A stretch of DNA of 32,912 nt from Bacteroidota bacterium. GTDB lineage: Bacteria > Bacteroidota > Ignavibacteria > UBA10030 > SZUA-254. Each line of letters begins with the position of its first letter. Within the stretch, counting starts at the first letter, position 1. The translations under genes were made by a program, and so were the position numbers. This document shows, piece after piece, positions 8,329-32,912 of the stretch. Under the pieces are notes generated by a model. It saw only the letters and a program-made list of their open reading frames with translations, searched no databases and was not told where the DNA came from. Location: contig JAGVIE010000053.1 in assembly GCA_020056225.1 (NCBI GenBank), positions 1 to 32,912 of the forward strand. Direction: 5' to 3'.

Positions 8329-10323
8329 ATGGCAAATTTATCGATAACAAGATGGTTTGAAACACATTTATCGAAAATTATTTTGGGAGAAACCGTCATT
8401 CTTGCAATCGGTATTTGTGCTATGATCGCTGGCGTTTTAATTGACTTGTTCTTTGTTAGAATTATTTGTTTGGTAATAGTTATGGGTTCCGCTCTGATGA
8501 TATTCTCGTCTCTGCGCGCCAAACACCTTCAGATTCGATCGGGTACCAGGGAATCAAATAATATAAACCACTCACAAATCGGAAATGATATGATGAAAAA
8601 ACTTATCTTCGATGATTTCCAACCAAATATGAACGGCGATATCCGGCTCGAAGAAGTTAATGAGGAAGAGAAAATTGTGGAATCAACCGACTCGCCCACG
8701 AAACCCGCTACCGAGATTGCAAAACATCGTGGTGATCAATATTACAAACCGATGAGAGAGAACGAACAACCGGTAACGAGGGAATATCATCTGTCCGATT
8801 TTTTTGATGTTGACTCAGCAATTTTTAAGGAAGATGCTGAGCCTCGGACCGAATTTGATTTTCTATTAAACAAAGTCCTTGCGGTTATCAAGGAAGTTCT
8901 ATTTGCTCATAGTGTCGCATTCTTCTGGGCAAACCGAGAGAAGAATCAGATGATAATGGAAGCTCACGTTACTGATTCCGCAGATTTTTTTTCATCCCGC
9001 AGGTTTGTGATCGGGCACGATTTGGTAAGTAAGGTTGCGTTGACAGGAAAGCCGGAATTTATTTCGGAAGTGAATCCAATCTCCGAAAGCGAATTGTTCC
9101 AGTATTATGAAAAGCCGATAGCAATAAAATCATTCGTCGGTGTGCCGGTCTTTTTCTCGCAAAGCTCCGCTGAGAAAGTATTGGATCAACCGGTTGCCGT
9201 TCTTGCTATCGATAGCAAAGCCGGTGATGAATTTGGGCCAGAAACGCTCTCGCTGCTTGGGCAATTCACAAAACTGATCTCCGCTTTGATAAAAAGCTAT
9301 AACGATAAGTATGATCTTCTCCTTAATTCTGAGCTATTACGCTCGATTCGCCGATTGCAGGAACGTATCAGAAATAATTTTTCGCTAAATACCATCGTTC
9401 AGGCATTAGCTGAAGAGTCGTCGAAACTCATCAATTGGGATTTTCTTTCGATAGTACTATACGATGAGGCTAAGCGTGCGTGGGTTGCGAAAAAAATAAC
9501 AAATCGAGCGCATGAAGGCTATATTGTAACCGAGCAGGCGGTGGATTTTCCGGAAAGTATAGTCGGGCAAACGATAAAACACAATTCACATAATTTGATA
9601 GATGATCTGAGTGCGCTTACTATTCCCAGATATTTTTCGGAAGAAAAACTTGAAAAAAGAGGTTCGTTCCTATCGGTGCCTATCAGCTCGCTCAACAAAT
9701 GTTATGGAGCGATAAGTTTGGAGAGCCGCGAGAAACTTAATTTTTCTCGCCAGGATCTGGAAATGGTATACCGGCTCTCGGAAAATATTGCTTCTGCCCT
9801 GGAAATATTCTATATGCAAGAGGTTATTAATGAGTATGTTATCATAGATAATGTTACCGGCACATACTCAAAGAAATTTTTCATGCAAAGAATGGAAGAA
9901 GAACTACAGCGTGCGGACGATACCGGAACCGAACTATCTTCTCTCTTCGTTACGATCGATAAAGCTGACGATATAACACATCGCTTCGGTGTCGATGGAT
10001 TTGAGCGTGTAATACTTGCGCTGGCAAAAGCAATACGATCGAGCATTAGGCATTATGATCTTGTGGGCAGATATGAATCGGATCGTTTCGGCATTCTTCT
10101 CATTAACACAGCGGCTAATGAAGCATATTTATGGGCGGAAAAAATCCGGAAAAATATTGCTGGTCTTGTCATCAATCTTGACGGCAAAACATTTTCGATC
10201 ACCATCAGTGTCGGGGTTGCAGGCGCTCTTGAGGGTATGAAAAAAGAAGAGCTTCTTGGCAACACAATCGCCGTTTTGAGCAATGCTTCGAATGCCGGTG
10301 GGAACGTTGTAAGAGTTTTTTAA
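8329..10323 (+). CDS. Membrane GAF-GAF protein with degenerate GGDEF domain
   Basis: Two N-terminal membrane helices (about residues 15-60) are followed by a charged linker. Two GAF-like sensor domains come next (about 165-330 and 340-500), and then a C-terminal domain with the diguanylate cyclase fold. The signature GG(D/E)EF loop has become 'RYESDRFGILL' near residue 580. The usual metal and GTP-binding FKxxND...GH..GD segment is also lost ('TIDKADDITHRFGVDGFE'). Cyclase activity is therefore unlikely; the domain may bind nucleotide or serve in oligomerisation. I chose the ATG at 8329 (664 aa). A TTG at 8296 would add 11 residues but falls at the predicted transcription start. Confidence 0.85.
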   Translation: MANLSITRWFETHLSKIILGETVILAIGICAMIAGVLIDLFFVRIICLVIVMGSALMIFSSLRAKHLQIRSGTRESNNINHSQIGNDMMKKLIFDDFQPNMNGDIRLEEVNEEEKIVESTDSPTKPATEIAKHRGDQYYKPMRENEQPVTREYHLSDFFDVDSAIFKEDAEPRTEFDFLLNKVLAVIKEVLFAHSVAFFWANREKNQMIMEAHVTDSADFFSSRRFVIGHDLVSKVALTGKPEFISEVNPISESELFQYYEKPIAIKSFVGVPVFFSQSSAEKVLDQPVAVLAIDSKAGDEFGPETLSLLGQFTKLISALIKSYNDKYDLLLNSELLRSIRRLQERIRNNFSLNTIVQALAEESSKLINWDFLSIVLYDEAKRAWVAKKITNRAHEGYIVTEQAVDFPESIVGQTIKHNSHNLIDDLSALTIPRYFSEEKLEKRGSFLSVPISSLNKCYGAISLESREKLNFSRQDLEMVYRLSENIASALEIFYMQEVINEYVIIDNVTGTYSKKFFMQRMEEELQRADDTGTELSSLFVTIDKADDITHRFGVDGFERVILALAKAIRSSIRHYDLVGRYESDRFGILLINTAANEAYLWAEKIRKNIAGLVINLDGKTFSITISVGVAGALEGMKKEELLGNTIAVLSNASNAGGNVVRVF

Positions 10324-10650: not shown

Positions 10651-10761
10651 GTGACAGTTTACGATGTCATCGTGCGTAATGTTGTCGGAATGGTTTCGAA
10701 AGAAAAGCAACATCAAATCACCGTATTCGTACATAAAGACAGGATTCTGATATGTTTTTAG
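10651..10761 (+). CDS. Possible 36-aa ORF overlapping the first EutN gene
   Basis: A GTG-started frame (a TTG two codons earlier is an alternative) encodes 36 residues starting VTVYDVIVRNVVG with alternating hydrophobic residues, like beta strands. It ends 10 nt inside the first EutN gene in another frame, an arrangement that permits translational coupling. The ribosome binding site is poor (GGAG abuts the GTG). It is the only open frame of note in the 194-bp gap between the CxxC gene and the EutN pair. It may be chance. Confidence 0.2.
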   Translation: MTVYDVIVRNVVGMVSKEKQHQITVFVHKDRILICF

Positions 10762-11021
10762 GAAAAGTTATCGGTACAATATGGGCAACAAGGAAAGACG
10801 AGGAATTGGTCGGTATGAAGTTCCAGCTCGTCAAACATGTAGGCTTAGATTATAAAGTTAAAGATACATTCGTTGTCGCAGTTGATACAGTTCAAGCCGG
10901 CGTTGGTGATGTTGTGCTTGTATGCAGCGGAAGCTCTGCCCGCCAAACAGCATTGACTAAAAATAAACCCGTTGATGCCGTCATCATGGCAGTCGTTGAC
11001 AAATTAGATATTACTGAATAA
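10752..11021 (+). CDS. EutN/CcmL-family microcompartment vertex protein, copy 1
   Basis: EutN/CcmL (BMC-P) proteins form pentamers that cap the vertices of bacterial microcompartment shells. The 89-aa protein shows the family pattern throughout: 'GKVIGTIWATRKDEELVG' at the N-terminus, 'VAVDTVQAGVGDVVLVCSGSSAR' in the middle and 'KPVDAVIMAVVDKLDI' at the C-terminus. A Shine-Dalgarno AGGA lies 7 nt before the ATG. A second family member follows after 19 bp. No hexameric BMC-H shell gene or encapsulated enzyme is nearby. The pair may supply a compartment encoded elsewhere, or may have a shell-independent role. Confidence 0.93.
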   Translation: MFLGKVIGTIWATRKDEELVGMKFQLVKHVGLDYKVKDTFVVAVDTVQAGVGDVVLVCSGSSARQTALTKNKPVDAVIMAVVDKLDITE

Positions 11022-11040
11022 CTAAAACAATAATCTGCTT

Positions 11041-11322
11041 ATGTTTTTTGGAAAGGTCATCGGAACGATCTGGGCAACAAGGAAGGATGAAAGTTTGATG
11101 AATTGCAAGCTTCAATTCATTCAACCCCTTAATGCGCATCGTGAAACCGTCGGCGACCCGATTGTGGCTGTCGATACTATTGGTGCAGGACCCGGTGAAA
11201 CAATTTTCTATATTACAGCGCGTGAAGCGACTATACCGCTACCGGTTGAAATGGCTCCGGTCGATGCCAGTATCGTCGGTATTGTTGATAGAATCGATGT
11301 ACAGAAAACTCGAAGCGCATAA
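11041..11322 (+). CDS. EutN/CcmL-family microcompartment vertex protein, copy 2
   Basis: This 93-aa paralogue repeats the family N-terminus ('GKVIGTIWATRKDESLMN') and the core 'VAVDTIGAGPGETIFYIT'. It also has the C-terminal strand 'APVDASIVGIVDRIDV'. The central GSSAR loop of copy 1, near the pentamer pore, is here 'AREATIP', so the two copies differ where the pore would be. It starts 19 bp after copy 1 and ends about 40 bp before rpoD on the same strand. Tandem vertex paralogues could form mixed pentamers or serve distinct sites; this is inference. Confidence 0.92.
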   Translation: MFFGKVIGTIWATRKDESLMNCKLQFIQPLNAHRETVGDPIVAVDTIGAGPGETIFYITAREATIPLPVEMAPVDASIVGIVDRIDVQKTRSA

Positions 11323-30208: not shown

Positions 30209-30248
30209 CAGTAACTTTTATTAATGATAACAACTAACATATAATTCA

Positions 30249-30476
30249 TCAAATCTTAGATAGTGATTGTTTTCTTAATCTTATTATTAACCATACACCC
30301 AAACCAAAAAGTAATATTCCAAGAAGGATTAGTCCGGCGGAATATATCATAGGTTCTACAAAAATAGACCATCGTAAAAGTGGATTACTGGATGATAAAT
30401 CAGCATATACAAAACTATAATTGATAACAAGAAATGTCCCGATAGTTATCAACAAGTAGGGAATTATATTTTTCAT
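30249..30476 (-). CDS. Small two-helix membrane protein
   Basis: The 75-aa protein has two predicted membrane helices (about residues 5-25 and 40-67) and a basic tail ('IIRLRKQSLSKI'). A strong Shine-Dalgarno, AAGGAG, lies 6 nt before the ATG, unlike most core genes here. It follows the attC-like half site at 30521-30539 and an AT dinucleotide run. Family not recognised. Confidence 0.6.
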   Translation of the reverse strand: MKNIIPYLLITIGTFLVINYSFVYADLSSSNPLLRWSIFVEPMIYSAGLILLGILLFGLGVWLIIRLRKQSLSKI

Positions 30477-30520
30477 GATAGCTCCTTTTGATATATATAT
30501 ATATGATTATTTTTTTATTT

Positions 30521-30539
30521 GCCTTGCTATTGGTTAGGC
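30521..30539 (-). repeat. attC-like half site (GCCTAAC core)
   Basis: Read on the minus strand, GCCTAAC fits the RYYYAAC integron core exactly. It starts 15 bp after the stop of the gene at 30555 and is followed by CAATA and GCAAGGC. No matching GTTRRRY core exists before the next gene, so the site looks truncated. GCCT and AGGC on the plus strand also form a small hairpin. Confidence 0.4.
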
Positions 30540-30554
30540 AGTTGATAATCCTTG

Positions 30555-30971
30555 TTACAAATGGCGCTCTCGGTTTGACATGACAATTACTCCTACAATA
30601 CCGACCAACATACCAGATGGACAAACCAGAATCGCGATCATGAAGAATGCAACACTAGCGCCATTTAGCAAATCGTAAGCCATGCTTGTTTCCGCTACTT
30701 TAGAAGCAATACCCTCAAATACATTGTGAAGGACAGCAAAAAAGATAACTCCAATGCCCGATGCGTATATGAGATAACGAAACTGCTTCGAGGTTCTCCA
30801 TTGATGGACGAAAGCAAGAACCACTGCAATGGATGAAAGAAACGCTAGCACTATGCCAAGCTGGTTATCGCTGATGCCCACTGCAGAAGCAGCGAGTGCG
30901 AATACGCAACAAGCAACGAGGAGTATTAACGAGGCGATGATGTTACGAGGTGACGTAAGTTCTCTAAGCAT
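30555..30971 (-). CDS. Hypothetical four-helix membrane protein (cassette-like)
   Basis: From the Met at 30971 the protein is 138 aa with four predicted membrane helices and short loops. It opens 'MLRELTSPRNIIASLILLVA' and ends 'IVMSNRERHL'. A ribosome binding site, GGAAG, lies about 8 nt upstream. A longer frame to 31070 lacks a comparable site and enters the upstream repeat. It is bounded by a degenerate attC upstream and a half attC 15 bp after its stop, so it may be a captured gene cassette. Family not recognised. Confidence 0.65.
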   Translation of the reverse strand: MLRELTSPRNIIASLILLVACCVFALAASAVGISDNQLGIVLAFLSSIAVVLAFVHQWRTSKQFRYLIYASGIGVIFFAVLHNVFEGIASKVAETSMAYDLLNGASVAFFMIAILVCPSGMLVGIVGVIVMSNRERHL

Positions 30972-31048
30972 AACAAACTTCCTATCCAAAAGATAGTTAT
31001 TTTCTGTTGTCAAACGAATGGCTGTTAAGTCCCGGTAAAAATGCGGGA

Positions 31049-31201
31049 CGCCAACAACGCGCTGCCGCACTGATAACTTTGCGCCAGTGGCGCATGAGCC
31101 TTTAACTCACAAAATATACGAAACCGCTTCCATCCATGCAATATGTGTCGAAGTTTATCCCGCCATTTTCTGGCGGGATCAGCTTGAGCCACTGGTTAGG
31201 G
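31049..31201 (-). repeat. Degenerate attC-like site
   Basis: On the minus strand the site starts 13 bp after the stop of the upstream gene with CCCTAAC (31201-31195), then CAGTG and GCTCAAGC, as R'' and L'' boxes would be. The far end reads GTTGGCG (31055-31049), a poor R' box. The interior holds a TCCCGCCA palindrome (31157-31179), and the end abuts a GTCCCG...CGGGAC hairpin (31029-31049). I find no L' box. It looks like an attC damaged by palindrome insertion. The outer TTTGCGCC can pair with GGCGCAAA inside. Confidence 0.45.
31157..31179. repeat. Palindrome ATCCCGCCA...TGGCGGGAT
   Basis: Perfect 9-bp arms with a 5-nt loop. The inner 8 bp equal those at 26634-26655. It sits within the degenerate attC-like spacer. 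Confidence 0.75.
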
Positions 31202-31214
31202 CGCAAATTATTCT

Positions 31215-31589
31215 TCACCTTTTTCCTCGAGTCTCTATAAGTTCCTTAAATGGTATCAACTCTACTCTTTCAACCTTCACAATATCACCTTGCGGTCCCA
31301 CATGCACCCGTCCGAGAATATGCATAGTCGTAGGATTAGACTGCCGCCATTCATATTTCTGTGCGACAAGGGCGGTATACTGGCACCCTGCATAACCACA
31401 CATTGAACTATAGAGCACAACTTTAGGAGTGTCAAGCTTAGTTCCCTTTGCAAACTCCTTTTGTGTTCCGATAATTTCAGGGCATTTCAAAAAAGCTTCG
31501 ATGAGCTCCTTCTCGCTCACTCGTTCCTGTGCATTTGCGATTGAGACAAACAGCATAACTGCCAAAGCAAACGTAATCATTATTCTCAT
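31215..31589 (-). CDS. Hypothetical secreted protein (cassette-like)
   Basis: The 124-aa protein has a clear signal peptide, 'MRIMITFALAVMLFVSIANA', with a likely cut near residue 20. The mature part carries 'YSSMCGYAGCQY', a Cys pair that could bind metal or form a disulfide, and a beta-rich C-terminus. A strong AAAGGAG precedes the ATG. A complete attC lies just upstream (31627-31733) and a degenerate one starts 13 bp after its stop. This is the arrangement of an integron cassette. I do not recognise the family. Confidence 0.7.
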   Translation of the reverse strand: MRIMITFALAVMLFVSIANAQERVSEKELIEAFLKCPEIIGTQKEFAKGTKLDTPKVVLYSSMCGYAGCQYTALVAQKYEWRQSNPTTMHILGRVHVGPQGDIVKVERVELIPFKELIETRGKR

Positions 31590-31626
31590 GTCGTGTTTAT
31601 CTCCTTTAGCTACATAACAGTATTGC

Positions 31627-31733
31627 GCCTAACACGCTGCCTAAGAACAGACTGCTAAGTTTTTTTCAACCCAACTTAAGCGACTCTATCGACTAGTTCG
31701 GAAGAAGCGATCGTGTTGAGGCTCGGGTTAGAT
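31627..31733 (-). repeat. Integron attC site
   Basis: Read on the minus strand, the 107-bp spacer starts with R'' ATCTAAC (fits RYYYAAC), then CCGA and L'' GCCTCAA. It ends with L' CTTAGGC, then AGCGT and R' GTTAGGC (fits GTTRRRY). L'' and L' pair with an unpaired base on one side, as in known attC sites. The middle is imperfectly self-complementary (CTTAAGTT and AACTTAG). It lies 15 bp after one gene's stop and 37 bp before the next ATG, in the orientation gene-attC-gene expected for cassettes. Confidence 0.72.
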
Positions 31734-31748
31734 GTAATATAATTTACT

Positions 31749-32330
31749 TTATAATTTTTCTCTTTTATGAAGTTTTATAAAACTATAACTTAAATATGAA
31801 AACCAGACTGACCAACCGATGTGAAAAAACCTCTGTTTTAATCCAAGGTAGTCACTTAATAAGTTTGGGAAATAAGACAAAAAGCCGAGTGACATCAGTA
31901 ATAAACTTAGTATCGACATTTGATTTAACATTGCTAATTCTCTTTTCCATAGAAATAAGCCCAAGAAAGGTGAGAGGAATAAGAGTATTGAAGGCATTCC
32001 CATGATCAGATGCAATCTCAACGGTAAGGGAAATATTCCGGCTCCAGCTATTGATAGCGAATATGAAAATATTATAAGTACCGGGAATATATTCAGTTTA
32101 AAAATCTTACATGTCTTGTAAAGTCCAACAATAAATAACATGCTCAACACCGCACACACAATTAGACCGATAGAAAATAAAATCTGTGTGCTCGTTCCAA
32201 TTGCCCCTAATTCACTGACCATTCTGGCTAGATGATTGTAGTCTCCTAAGAGAAGACCACATACAACAGTTGTAATCCAGAACATTATTGGAATAATAAA
32301 TCCAAGATATAGAAAATGTTTTGTACGCAT
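31749..32330 (-). CDS. DUF998-type membrane protein (cassette-like)
   Basis: The 193-aa protein has about six membrane helices. The family hallmarks 'HLARMVSELGAIGTSTQILF', 'IFPLPLRLHLIMGMPSIL' and the Pro/His pattern fit DUF998, an integral membrane family of unknown function. Its stop lies 15 bp before the R'' box of the attC at 31627-31733, so it is the first cassette-like gene of the cluster. No attI or attC is visible upstream; a REP-like element lies at 32380-32430 instead. Confidence 0.75.
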   Translation of the reverse strand: MRTKHFLYLGFIIPIMFWITTVVCGLLLGDYNHLARMVSELGAIGTSTQILFSIGLIVCAVLSMLFIVGLYKTCKIFKLNIFPVLIIFSYSLSIAGAGIFPLPLRLHLIMGMPSILLFLSPFLGLFLWKRELAMLNQMSILSLLLMSLGFLSYFPNLLSDYLGLKQRFFHIGWSVWFSYLSYSFIKLHKREKL

Positions 32331-32379
32331 CTTTTTAATATTTACTTGACTTTGTAATCATGGTCGTAAAGCGTAACCT

Positions 32380-32430
32380 GTCACCCTGAGACTTCGGCGT
32401 GAGCTCAGTCGAACGCTTGTCGAAGCGTGA
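32380..32430. repeat. REP-like element, CTGAGC/GTCGAA family
   Basis: GACTTCGGCGTGAGCTCAGT followed by CGAAC nearly matches the reverse complement of 22508-22531. CGCTTGTCGAAGCG (32413-32426) makes a small palindrome at its right side. The same GCTTGTCGAAG core occurs inside the MITE-like element at 26704-26821. Confidence 0.55.
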
Positions 32431-32521
32431 TTTTTGAGTCAATAAGTAATGGTTCGTCATCCTCACCATGACACTTATTTTATTTTTCAGATGATTCAAG
32501 TAATTAATTTTGTTTGTTTGC

Positions 32522-32827
32522 TTATTTACTGTTCAGATCAAATTTCCATATACAATTCGTCCATGTGCTATCTGGTTCAACGTATTTCAATGTTACAGGG
32601 AAATCCGGAGAAATACACATGGATGATATTATCAACGTACCATCTTTGACATAGTTGGTGGTTGGATCCATAATTCTCTGCTTTGATCCTCCTCCGTATG
32701 TTGAATACTCAATATTCTTCAGTGTTTTGTCCAGTATAAGTATCACCAAATCCATTCCGCCATCGATAGATTGGTATAGCGCATCTTTAGTAACCGGAAA
32801 GTCTTTTGATACGGTATGATCTTCCCC
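32522..32827 (-). pseudogene. SBBP beta-propeller protein, 5' end lost
   Basis: The minus-strand frame is open from a stop at 32828 but has no start codon before the Met at 32755; it encodes about 101 residues. The sequence shows SBBP-type repeats: 'KDFPVTKDALYQSIDGG', 'MDLVILILDKTLKNIEYSTY', GGGS, then a second 'SPDFPVT'. These are blades of a secreted propeller as found in FCB bacteria. The frame is cut at the edge of an insertion sequence, so only the last one or two blades remain. The Met at 32755 would start mid-blade. Confidence 0.7.
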
Positions 32828-32828
32828 C

Positions 32829-32912
32829 TAATTTTCGGACAGAGAGAAAAGCCAGTATATTAGAGAAAAGGAGAAGTCCGAAATGGAAGCAGAACAAGTC
32901 AGAAGAAGAAGA
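32829..32912 (+). mobile_element. Left end of an insertion sequence (runs off the window)
   Basis: Directly at the break of the SBBP gene begins TAATTTTCGGACAG, a plausible terminal inverted repeat. After about 55 bp come AAAAGGAG and a start codon. The exact outer boundary (between 32823 and 32830) and the family cannot be fixed without the other end. Orientation follows the short frame at 32883. Confidence 0.55.
32883..32912 (+). CDS. Start of a probable transposase ORF (partial)
   Basis: An ATG preceded by AAAAGGAG opens MEAEQVRRRR and runs off the window. A short basic N-terminus after a strong ribosome binding site and a terminal-repeat-like sequence suits orfA of an IS3-type element. 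Ten codons are too few to be sure. Confidence 0.4.
   Translation, partial: MEAEQVRRRR

Follow-up and report, generated by a model that had tools for sequence, protein, structure and literature searches.

A probable integrase-less, decaying integron cassette cluster at a contig end in an Ignavibacteria genome

Introduction

Clusters of integron gene cassettes without a nearby integrase are named by the number of their attC sites: at least two make a cluster of attC sites lacking integrases (CALIN), whereas one makes a single attC site lacking integrases (SALIN), as passages of two sources put it (PMC9024848, PMC12690207). According to a passage of PMC9668308, CALIN cassettes can be moved by an integron integrase (IntI) from elsewhere, and a passage of PMC12444791 cites Loot et al. 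2024 for insertion outside arrays, at attG sites. Loss of an integron within a genus is described in PMC3607928 for Treponema, and accounts in which an integron was gained, its integrase was then lost or became inactive and the cassettes were left behind are found in the same paper, for Treponema, and in PMC12444791, for Xanthomonas. Integrons have been reported in Chlorobi and Ignavibacteriae in a passage of PMC9024848. Here we describe a locus of a Bacteroidota bacterium (assembly GCA_020056225.1; Ignavibacteria, UBA10030, SZUA-254) in which three consecutive small genes are each followed by a nearly whole or broken attC-type site. The window that we analyzed is the whole of contig JAGVIE010000053.1 (32,912 bases), which is contig C35 of the 62 contigs of this genome, coded G000; elsewhere G denotes a genome, C a contig of a genome, and L a fetched locus or stretch.

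The locus resembles a CALIN in that several small genes of the same orientation are each followed by an attC-type site, with no intI over the cut-off in the genome. It is unlike a CALIN in that one of its three sites scores as attC with the covariance models used here (R1 and R2, see below) and two are decayed; default IntegronFinder might give one site or none. If site 1 alone were counted, it would be like a SALIN, from which it differs by two further remnants that stand in line by homology. A preliminary description of the window had proposed the SALIN label, which we replace with CALIN, the term for two sites or more. With chromosomal arrays and sites of the same order (arrays of G024 and G029; sites of G036 and G052) the locus shares R'', a 5′ arm with an extrahelical base, L' and R', and site 2 also has loop sequence common to the attC sites of the order; unlike the window genome, G024 and G029 have an IntI over the cut-off. 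The cases described for Treponema and Xanthomonas, in which cassettes were left after integrase loss, are similar but concern another lineage.

Results

The best explanation of the locus, to which we give a probability of about 0.87, is a small, decaying cluster of integron cassettes in a genome without a recognized integron integrase, for which CALIN would be the name. Its features, in window coordinates, are as follows.

31749–32330, minus strand: putative cassette gene 1, a 193-amino acid (aa) membrane protein, Pfam DUF998
31612–31733, minus strand: attC site 1, nearly complete, from attC anatomy and covariance models
31215–31589, minus strand: putative cassette gene 2, 124 aa with a signal-like N-terminus; AAGGAG ribosome-binding site just past attC site 1
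31063–31201, minus strand: attC site 2, decayed; 5′ arm intact at 31178–31201, homology to attC sites
30555–30971, minus strand: putative cassette gene 3, 138 aa, four helices in a low-confidence model, probably a membrane protein
30526–30539, minus strand: attC site 3, a stub of R'' and the start of L'', with no 3′ half
30249–30476, minus strand: small gene 4, 75 aa with hydrophobic stretches and an AAGGAG ribosome-binding site

Genes 1–3 all lie on the minus strand in one orientation, and a core motif follows each of them: ATCTAAC (31727–31733) 15 bp past the stop of gene 1, CCCTAAC (31195–31201) 13 bp past that of gene 2 and GCCTAAC (30533–30539) 15 bp past that of gene 3, exactly as the preliminary description had located them. 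We then examined the 25 bases 3′ of the stop for 38 window genes, hand-picked from the list of open reading frames (ORFs), for a relaxed core, N-YYY-AAC. The motif was present behind three of the 38, namely the consecutive genes 1, 2 and 3, and behind none of the other 35, which bears out the earlier statement that the genes on either side have no such core; the density of the motif in the window predicts about 4.6% per gene (0.046). Small gene 4, for which approximate ends (30242–30478) were used, has no core in the 25 bases past its stop. Strong ribosome-binding sites had also been pointed out on two downstream genes, and AAGGAG indeed occurs within 20 bases 5′ of the start in just two of the 38, gene 2 and small gene 4.

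To have a standard of comparison from the same phylum, we gathered attC sites from integrase-side stretches and from stretches resembling site 2. Covariance model R1 holds 12 sites from the same order, chosen from the 27 rows of alignment A2 to give alignment A3; the rows left out were L088 (misaligned), one near-duplicate from G024 and others omitted to stay in the order. Site 1 played no part in this choice. Both sides change in 5 of the 19 pairs of A3, a count that shuffles reach 46 times in 500, and its covariation score is reached in 1 of 500. R1 gave 88 matches with an expectation value (E) ≤ 1 in 68 sources. Model R2 was then built from 51 R1 matches at E ≤ 0.002, taken from 19 of these sources; three are class 1 plasmid sites, and L039 380–531 is included on both strands. 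The R2 alignment, A5, in which 12 of 19 pairs change on both sides, was fitted to the R1 structure and leans towards it. On nine plasmid loci (L076–L084), R1 at E ≤ 1 found three sites only (aadA16, catB3 and the DUF1010-gene spacer behind blaOXA-2), and it recovered one of ten hand-located class 1 attC sites (catB3); on plasmid loci R1 is specific but not sensitive. The consensus RYYYAAC/GTTRRRY was also observed in the arrays of the phylum that we scanned: a strict scan with it gave 5 matches in 20 integrase-side stretches versus 1.3 expected, and a looser scan of the loci gave 56 (some sites being counted on both strands) versus 2.0 in shuffles. A further alignment, A1, which combined class 1 sites with those of the lineage, was misaligned at the 3′ arm and set aside.

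With both models site 1 outscores everything else in the window, at 14.4 bits with R1 (E 0.012; next match 10.4 bits) and 19.2 bits with R2 (E 0.0057; next match 10.9 bits). The absence of a significant attC score at all three spacers, named beforehand as an outcome contrary to cassettes, was therefore not what we observed. Read on the minus strand, its 5′ half consists of R'' ATCTAAC, the spacer CCGA and L'' GCCT-C-AACACG (31712–31722), in which the isolated C is extrahelical; a 75-nucleotide (nt) loop separates this from the 3′ half, made up of L' CGTGTTAGGC (31627–31636), the spacer GCAATACT and R' GTTATGT (31612–31618). R'' fits RYYYAAC, and R' is off GTTRRRY at one position. The L arm is a 10-bp helix whose one extrahelical base stands where the attC sites of the order carry theirs; it was equalled in 2 of 20,000 shuffles with the place of the bulge fixed, as seen afterwards, and in 1 of 10,000 with that place free. 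The same arm forms in the minimum free energy (MFE) DNA fold of the bottom strand. The support for site 1 is local: the site sits past a stop, where the preliminary description had pointed.

Two candidates from the strict scan were rejected. One, a register of site 1 with R' GTTAGGC (31627–31633), was given up as the primary register since both covariance models favor GTTATGT, which has the better arm; it is a possible second register. The other, at 32575–32667, was supported by neither model.

That there are attC sites behind all three genes, as first proposed, holds for site 1, nearly complete and top-scoring, and in part for the other two: the 3′ arm of site 2 has decayed, site 3 is a 5′ stub, and neither is significant alone. 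The 5′ arm of site 2, CCCTAACCAGTGGCTCAAGCTGAT, scores 25.4 bits with a first 5′-arm profile, against a maximum of 20.2 bits in 200 simulated windows; this profile, like R1, is not independent of site 2 because rows were chosen by likeness to it. With a second profile, built from 59 of the 88 rows of alignment A4, none of them from stretches chosen by likeness to the window, the arm scores 24.5 bits, the best in the window, and none of 200 simulated windows scored as high (maximum 18.9 bits). Behind the arm come an internal hairpin, ATCCCGCCAGAAAATGGCGGGAT, and a loop homologous to attC loops, into which the alignment extends, and the 3′ arm is lost after ...GCAGC, so that the site does not have complete 5′ and 3′ arms. 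An attC-type region on C9 of G000, which scores 30.6 bits and is itself incomplete (model positions 21–134), matches positions 31136–31206 of the window (about 71 nt) at 85% identity (E 1.5e-15). BLAST matched parts of site 2 inside R1-supported attC sites (G036 C15, G052 C8, and G024 C1 and C9) and also at G013 C55 and at G024 C3 and C16, with no R1 attC at the matching place. The fold of site 2 is stable through internal hairpins (z −3.0), and its MFE fold is without attC arms, unlike that of the intact G036 attC, which forms them. Taken by its likeness to them, site 2 shares descent with attC sites, one of which is in the same genome.

Truncated sites occur elsewhere too. On G000 C12 and G013 C55, a truncated attC comprising the 5′ arm and the hairpin (loci L172 4242–4298 and L044 706–749) stands directly before the same gene, which we take to be SRPBCC-like, and after different upstream genes.

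Site 3 is a remnant composed of R'' GCCTAAC and the start of L'' (CAATAGC). The 13 bases CCTAACCAATAGC recur exactly in G376, which belongs to another family, within an attC-like site before its gene-3 homologue; this is one place, represented by stretches L136, L141 and L146.

Genes 1–3 behave like cassettes, being sporadic beside conserved neighbors. Among 98 genomes of the order, gene 1 has homologues in three (its own; G344, 58%; G360, 46% over a fragment), gene 2 is present in its own genome only, in two copies of 62% aa identity, and gene 3 is present in three, its own included; no genome but their own has two of the three genes. Fixed synteny of the genes, which had been named as an outcome contrary to cassettes, was not seen. 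The G360 fragment of gene 1 lies just downstream of an attC match (L144 2006–2075, 28.5 bits), and no attC match was found near the G344 copy. The second copy of gene 2, on C32, has two attC matches 1.9 and 3.3 kb off. We compared the neighborhood with stretches of three relatives, G013, G007 and G001. The neighbors pirin, methyltransferase, sulfatase and glyoxalase are present in those of G013 and G007, the glyoxalase in G007 being just a 35-aa piece, and the G001 stretch has pirin and pieces of glyoxalase; the ORFs upstream of the glyoxalase in G013 and G007 differ from those of the window.

Gene 1 matches PF06197 (DUF998; E 3.4e-15). For gene 2 there was no match in Pfam, PADLOC or PHROG, the best NCBIfam row was at noise (E 0.065), and its AlphaFold model, with a predicted local distance difference test score (pLDDT) of 69, had no match in PDB at E ≤ 0.001. 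Gene 3 has weak family matches, to CASP_dom (E 0.0025, under the cut-off), TIGR04286 (E 0.024) and, at noise level, one PHROG (E 0.091), and the model of its structure (pLDDT 61) has four helices at low confidence. Neither structure model was informative. PADLOC returned nothing for genes 1–3.

Homologues of gene 3 were located on genome contigs at nine loci: Chlorobiaceae, Bacteroidetes (two), Actinomycetota, Acidobacteria, Gemmatimonadetes, Holophagae (two) and Ignavibacteriales, these labels being the titles of metagenome-assembled genomes (MAGs) as deposited. In the Acidobacteria-titled MAG (L149), the stop of the homologue overlaps R'' of a 38.8-bit attC, the first of six. The Actinomycetota-titled locus has GCCTAACC 15 bp past the stop and attC matches of 27.3 and 17.6 bits further up. 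On G376 C384, the homologue lies between a canonical-looking attC (11 bits, E 0.48 with R1; no R2 match at E ≤ 1) and GCCTAACCAGTG (R''). When six genomes with gene-3 homologues were searched whole, four had R2 matches at E ≤ 0.1. Thus, gene 3 occurs together with attC in different places and genomes, as a mobile cassette does, and genes 1 and 2 are sporadic.

The locus had been described as having no integrase in view, and TIGR02249 (integron integrase) likewise found no match over its curated cut-off in G000; a complete integron was not found in that no intI over the cut-off is present in the genome (attI was not searched for). The closest matches, Xer-like proteins on C59 and C52, leave uncovered profile positions 180–232, where we take the IntI-specific insertion to lie, and were rejected as the integrase. 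These two genes, near the starts of C59 and C52 (L001 146–1054, L002 193–1089), encode Xer-like tyrosine recombinases that are IntI-related but distinct, and similar partial matches occur in eight other genomes of the family. In the phylum, 84 of 296 sampled genomes had TIGR02249 over the cut-off, including eight from the order of the window genome, and at the 1e-60 limit it matched no control genome (14 searched); the G024 integrase is 47% identical to IntI1. These counts, with the published reports from Chlorobi and Ignavibacteriae, tell against the earlier remark that cassette arrays are little described in this lineage. As to the sites by which a CALIN is counted (at least two), the cluster has one by model score, one by homology and one stub; no integrase over the cut-off was found nearby, but the cluster is at a contig end.

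The genome contains further attC-type sites. With R1 there are five at E ≤ 1.1e-4, spread over four contigs: C4 (71.5 bits), C6 (50.9), C9 (48.3 and 30.6) and C32 (37.7); a second C32 site, 9496–9708, scores 32.6 bits with R2. R2 matches at E ≤ 1 occur in 9 of the 15 genomes of the family, and an IntI over the cut-off in 1 of the 15 (G005). The contig with the G005 integrase (L085, C201) has a GC content of 43% in its first kilobase and 56–63% beyond, which may reflect recent acquisition or a contig foreign to the genome. In L085 an attC match lies on the 3′ side of the integrase on the same strand, which is the inverted integrase arrangement.

A variable spot was seen at L122 5494–7894, where G000 has two attC-type sites and G007 and G013 have 3–4 kb of other DNA without R1 matches. 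Its flanks are presumably a 2-oxoacid oxidoreductase operon and a CBS-domain gene.

Outside the three genes, small gene 4 may be a fourth cassette, one that lacks an attC of its own. The final ~100 bases of the window (32804–32912) have copies on C7, C25 and C23 of G000 at 96–100% and in G030 and G055 at 81–85%; the contig may break here at one end of an insertion sequence. A dispersed repeat at 32375–32493 has copies in G001, G007, G009 and G020, and one on C32 of G000 beside the second copy of gene 2. Two adjacent small ORFs at 10752–11322 resemble, as we take it, EutN/CcmL microcompartment proteins. Rfam at the gathering threshold found RNase P alone in the window.

Discussion

Several observations weigh against reading the locus as a cassette cluster. 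For site 1, pairing between R'' and R' reaches 5.5 of 7 positions with G-T counted as half, the bottom-strand fold is no stabler than those of shuffles (z −0.13), the 5′ arm alone scores 10.4 bits, fourth in the window and not exceptional, and the best 3′-arm profile match in the window (31627–31650) is in the other register, with 15 of 200 simulated windows scoring as high. The E-values of site 1 are modest, 19 bits over the whole genome corresponding to an E of about 0.7, and the site was not among the matches listed in the genome-wide scans, which scored 150 first-look candidates out of 478 in one case and 150 out of 765 in the other. Taken whole, site 2 scores 8–10 bits (E 0.15–4.6), which is not significant; site 3 has no match with R1 or R2, and the 5′-arm profile gives a score of −15 for its 24 bases. 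Sites 2 and 3 therefore rest on homology, since neither passes alone as a whole attC site, and 6 of the 12 rows of R1 (from L048, L049 and L050) come from stretches fetched for their likeness to site 2. Seven of the gene-3 loci (L145, L146, L147 and L150–L153) have no R2 match at E ≤ 1. We did not find an empty site: the C9 flanks are shared with relatives in which other DNA lies between them, and for C4 there were scattered pieces only. Finally, the cluster is at the end of the contig, gene 1 starting 0.6 kb from it. Because of this position we lowered our confidence from 0.88 to 0.87 and slightly raised the standing of an unseen integrase, discussed below.

Four other accounts were considered. 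A variant of our explanation, which we regard as tentative, is that the cassettes were never in a local array and that IntI acting in trans inserted them at attG-like sites, an event of the kind ascribed above to Loot et al. 2024, which would leave single cassettes or pairs scattered over the genome. That G000 has attC-type sites on four further contigs, among different neighboring genes, and no IntI over the cut-off fits this, as does the family, in which sites are found in many more genomes than an integrase is; the lack of an empty site at C9 counts against it, and three cassettes of the same orientation in a row also suit a shortened array.

It is unlikely, in our judgment, that the integron is intact and that its integrase and attI lie in an assembly gap or past the contig end. 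An assembly in 62 contigs, with a repeat at the very end next to the cluster, would allow it, and in several relatives the contig that carries the integrase stops no more than a few kb from it; the genome is, however, given as 100% complete, the nearest it has to an IntI is Xer-like, and sites 2 and 3 are decayed.

We consider it still less probable that in this family the broken attC sites have been retained in a different role, that of ending or stabilizing a transcript, and not for recombination. Retention of the 5′ arm and internal hairpin (of the ATCCCGCC...GGCGGGAT type) with loss of the 3′ arm is common to the window, to C9 and C12 of G000 and to C55 of G013, in two cases immediately before the same SRPBCC-like gene, but no T-run stands behind the hairpin and the stem copy on C12 has mismatches. 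Lastly, it is hardly credible that the motifs arose by chance or belong to an ordinary repeat near normal chromosomal genes: a core this short has 123 relaxed matches over the two strands of the window, and the scores of site 1 are modest, yet the core stands behind three consecutive genes and none of the other 35, the L arm is rare in shuffles, site 2 has both its profile score and its homology, and a homologue of gene 3 is a cassette elsewhere, in the L149 array.

Under the explanation that we prefer, a decaying CALIN, each gene would have been captured as a circular cassette, IntI recognizing attC as a folded bottom strand, as its enzyme family does. The integrase would then have been lost, or would have acted from elsewhere, and the sites would have decayed unequally, leaving site 1 nearly whole, site 2 without its 3′ arm and site 3 as a stub. 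The three genes, whose products are a DUF998 membrane protein (gene 1), a small protein that begins with a signal-like stretch (gene 2) and what is probably a membrane protein of four helices (gene 3), are by now probably fixed in place; their expression would come from promoters of their own or from read-through. The analysis shows the anatomy and homology of the sites, the sporadic distribution of the genes, a homologue of gene 3 that is a true cassette elsewhere and no IntI over the cut-off; capture by recombination is the proposed history.

If this explanation is right, the locus documents a late stage of integron decay in a family in which 9 of 15 genomes have attC-type matches at E ≤ 1 and 1 of 15 has an integrase over the cut-off. 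Gene 3 would represent one cassette family that spans several phylum titles and once heads a six-site array, which makes it a good candidate cassette cargo for functional testing.

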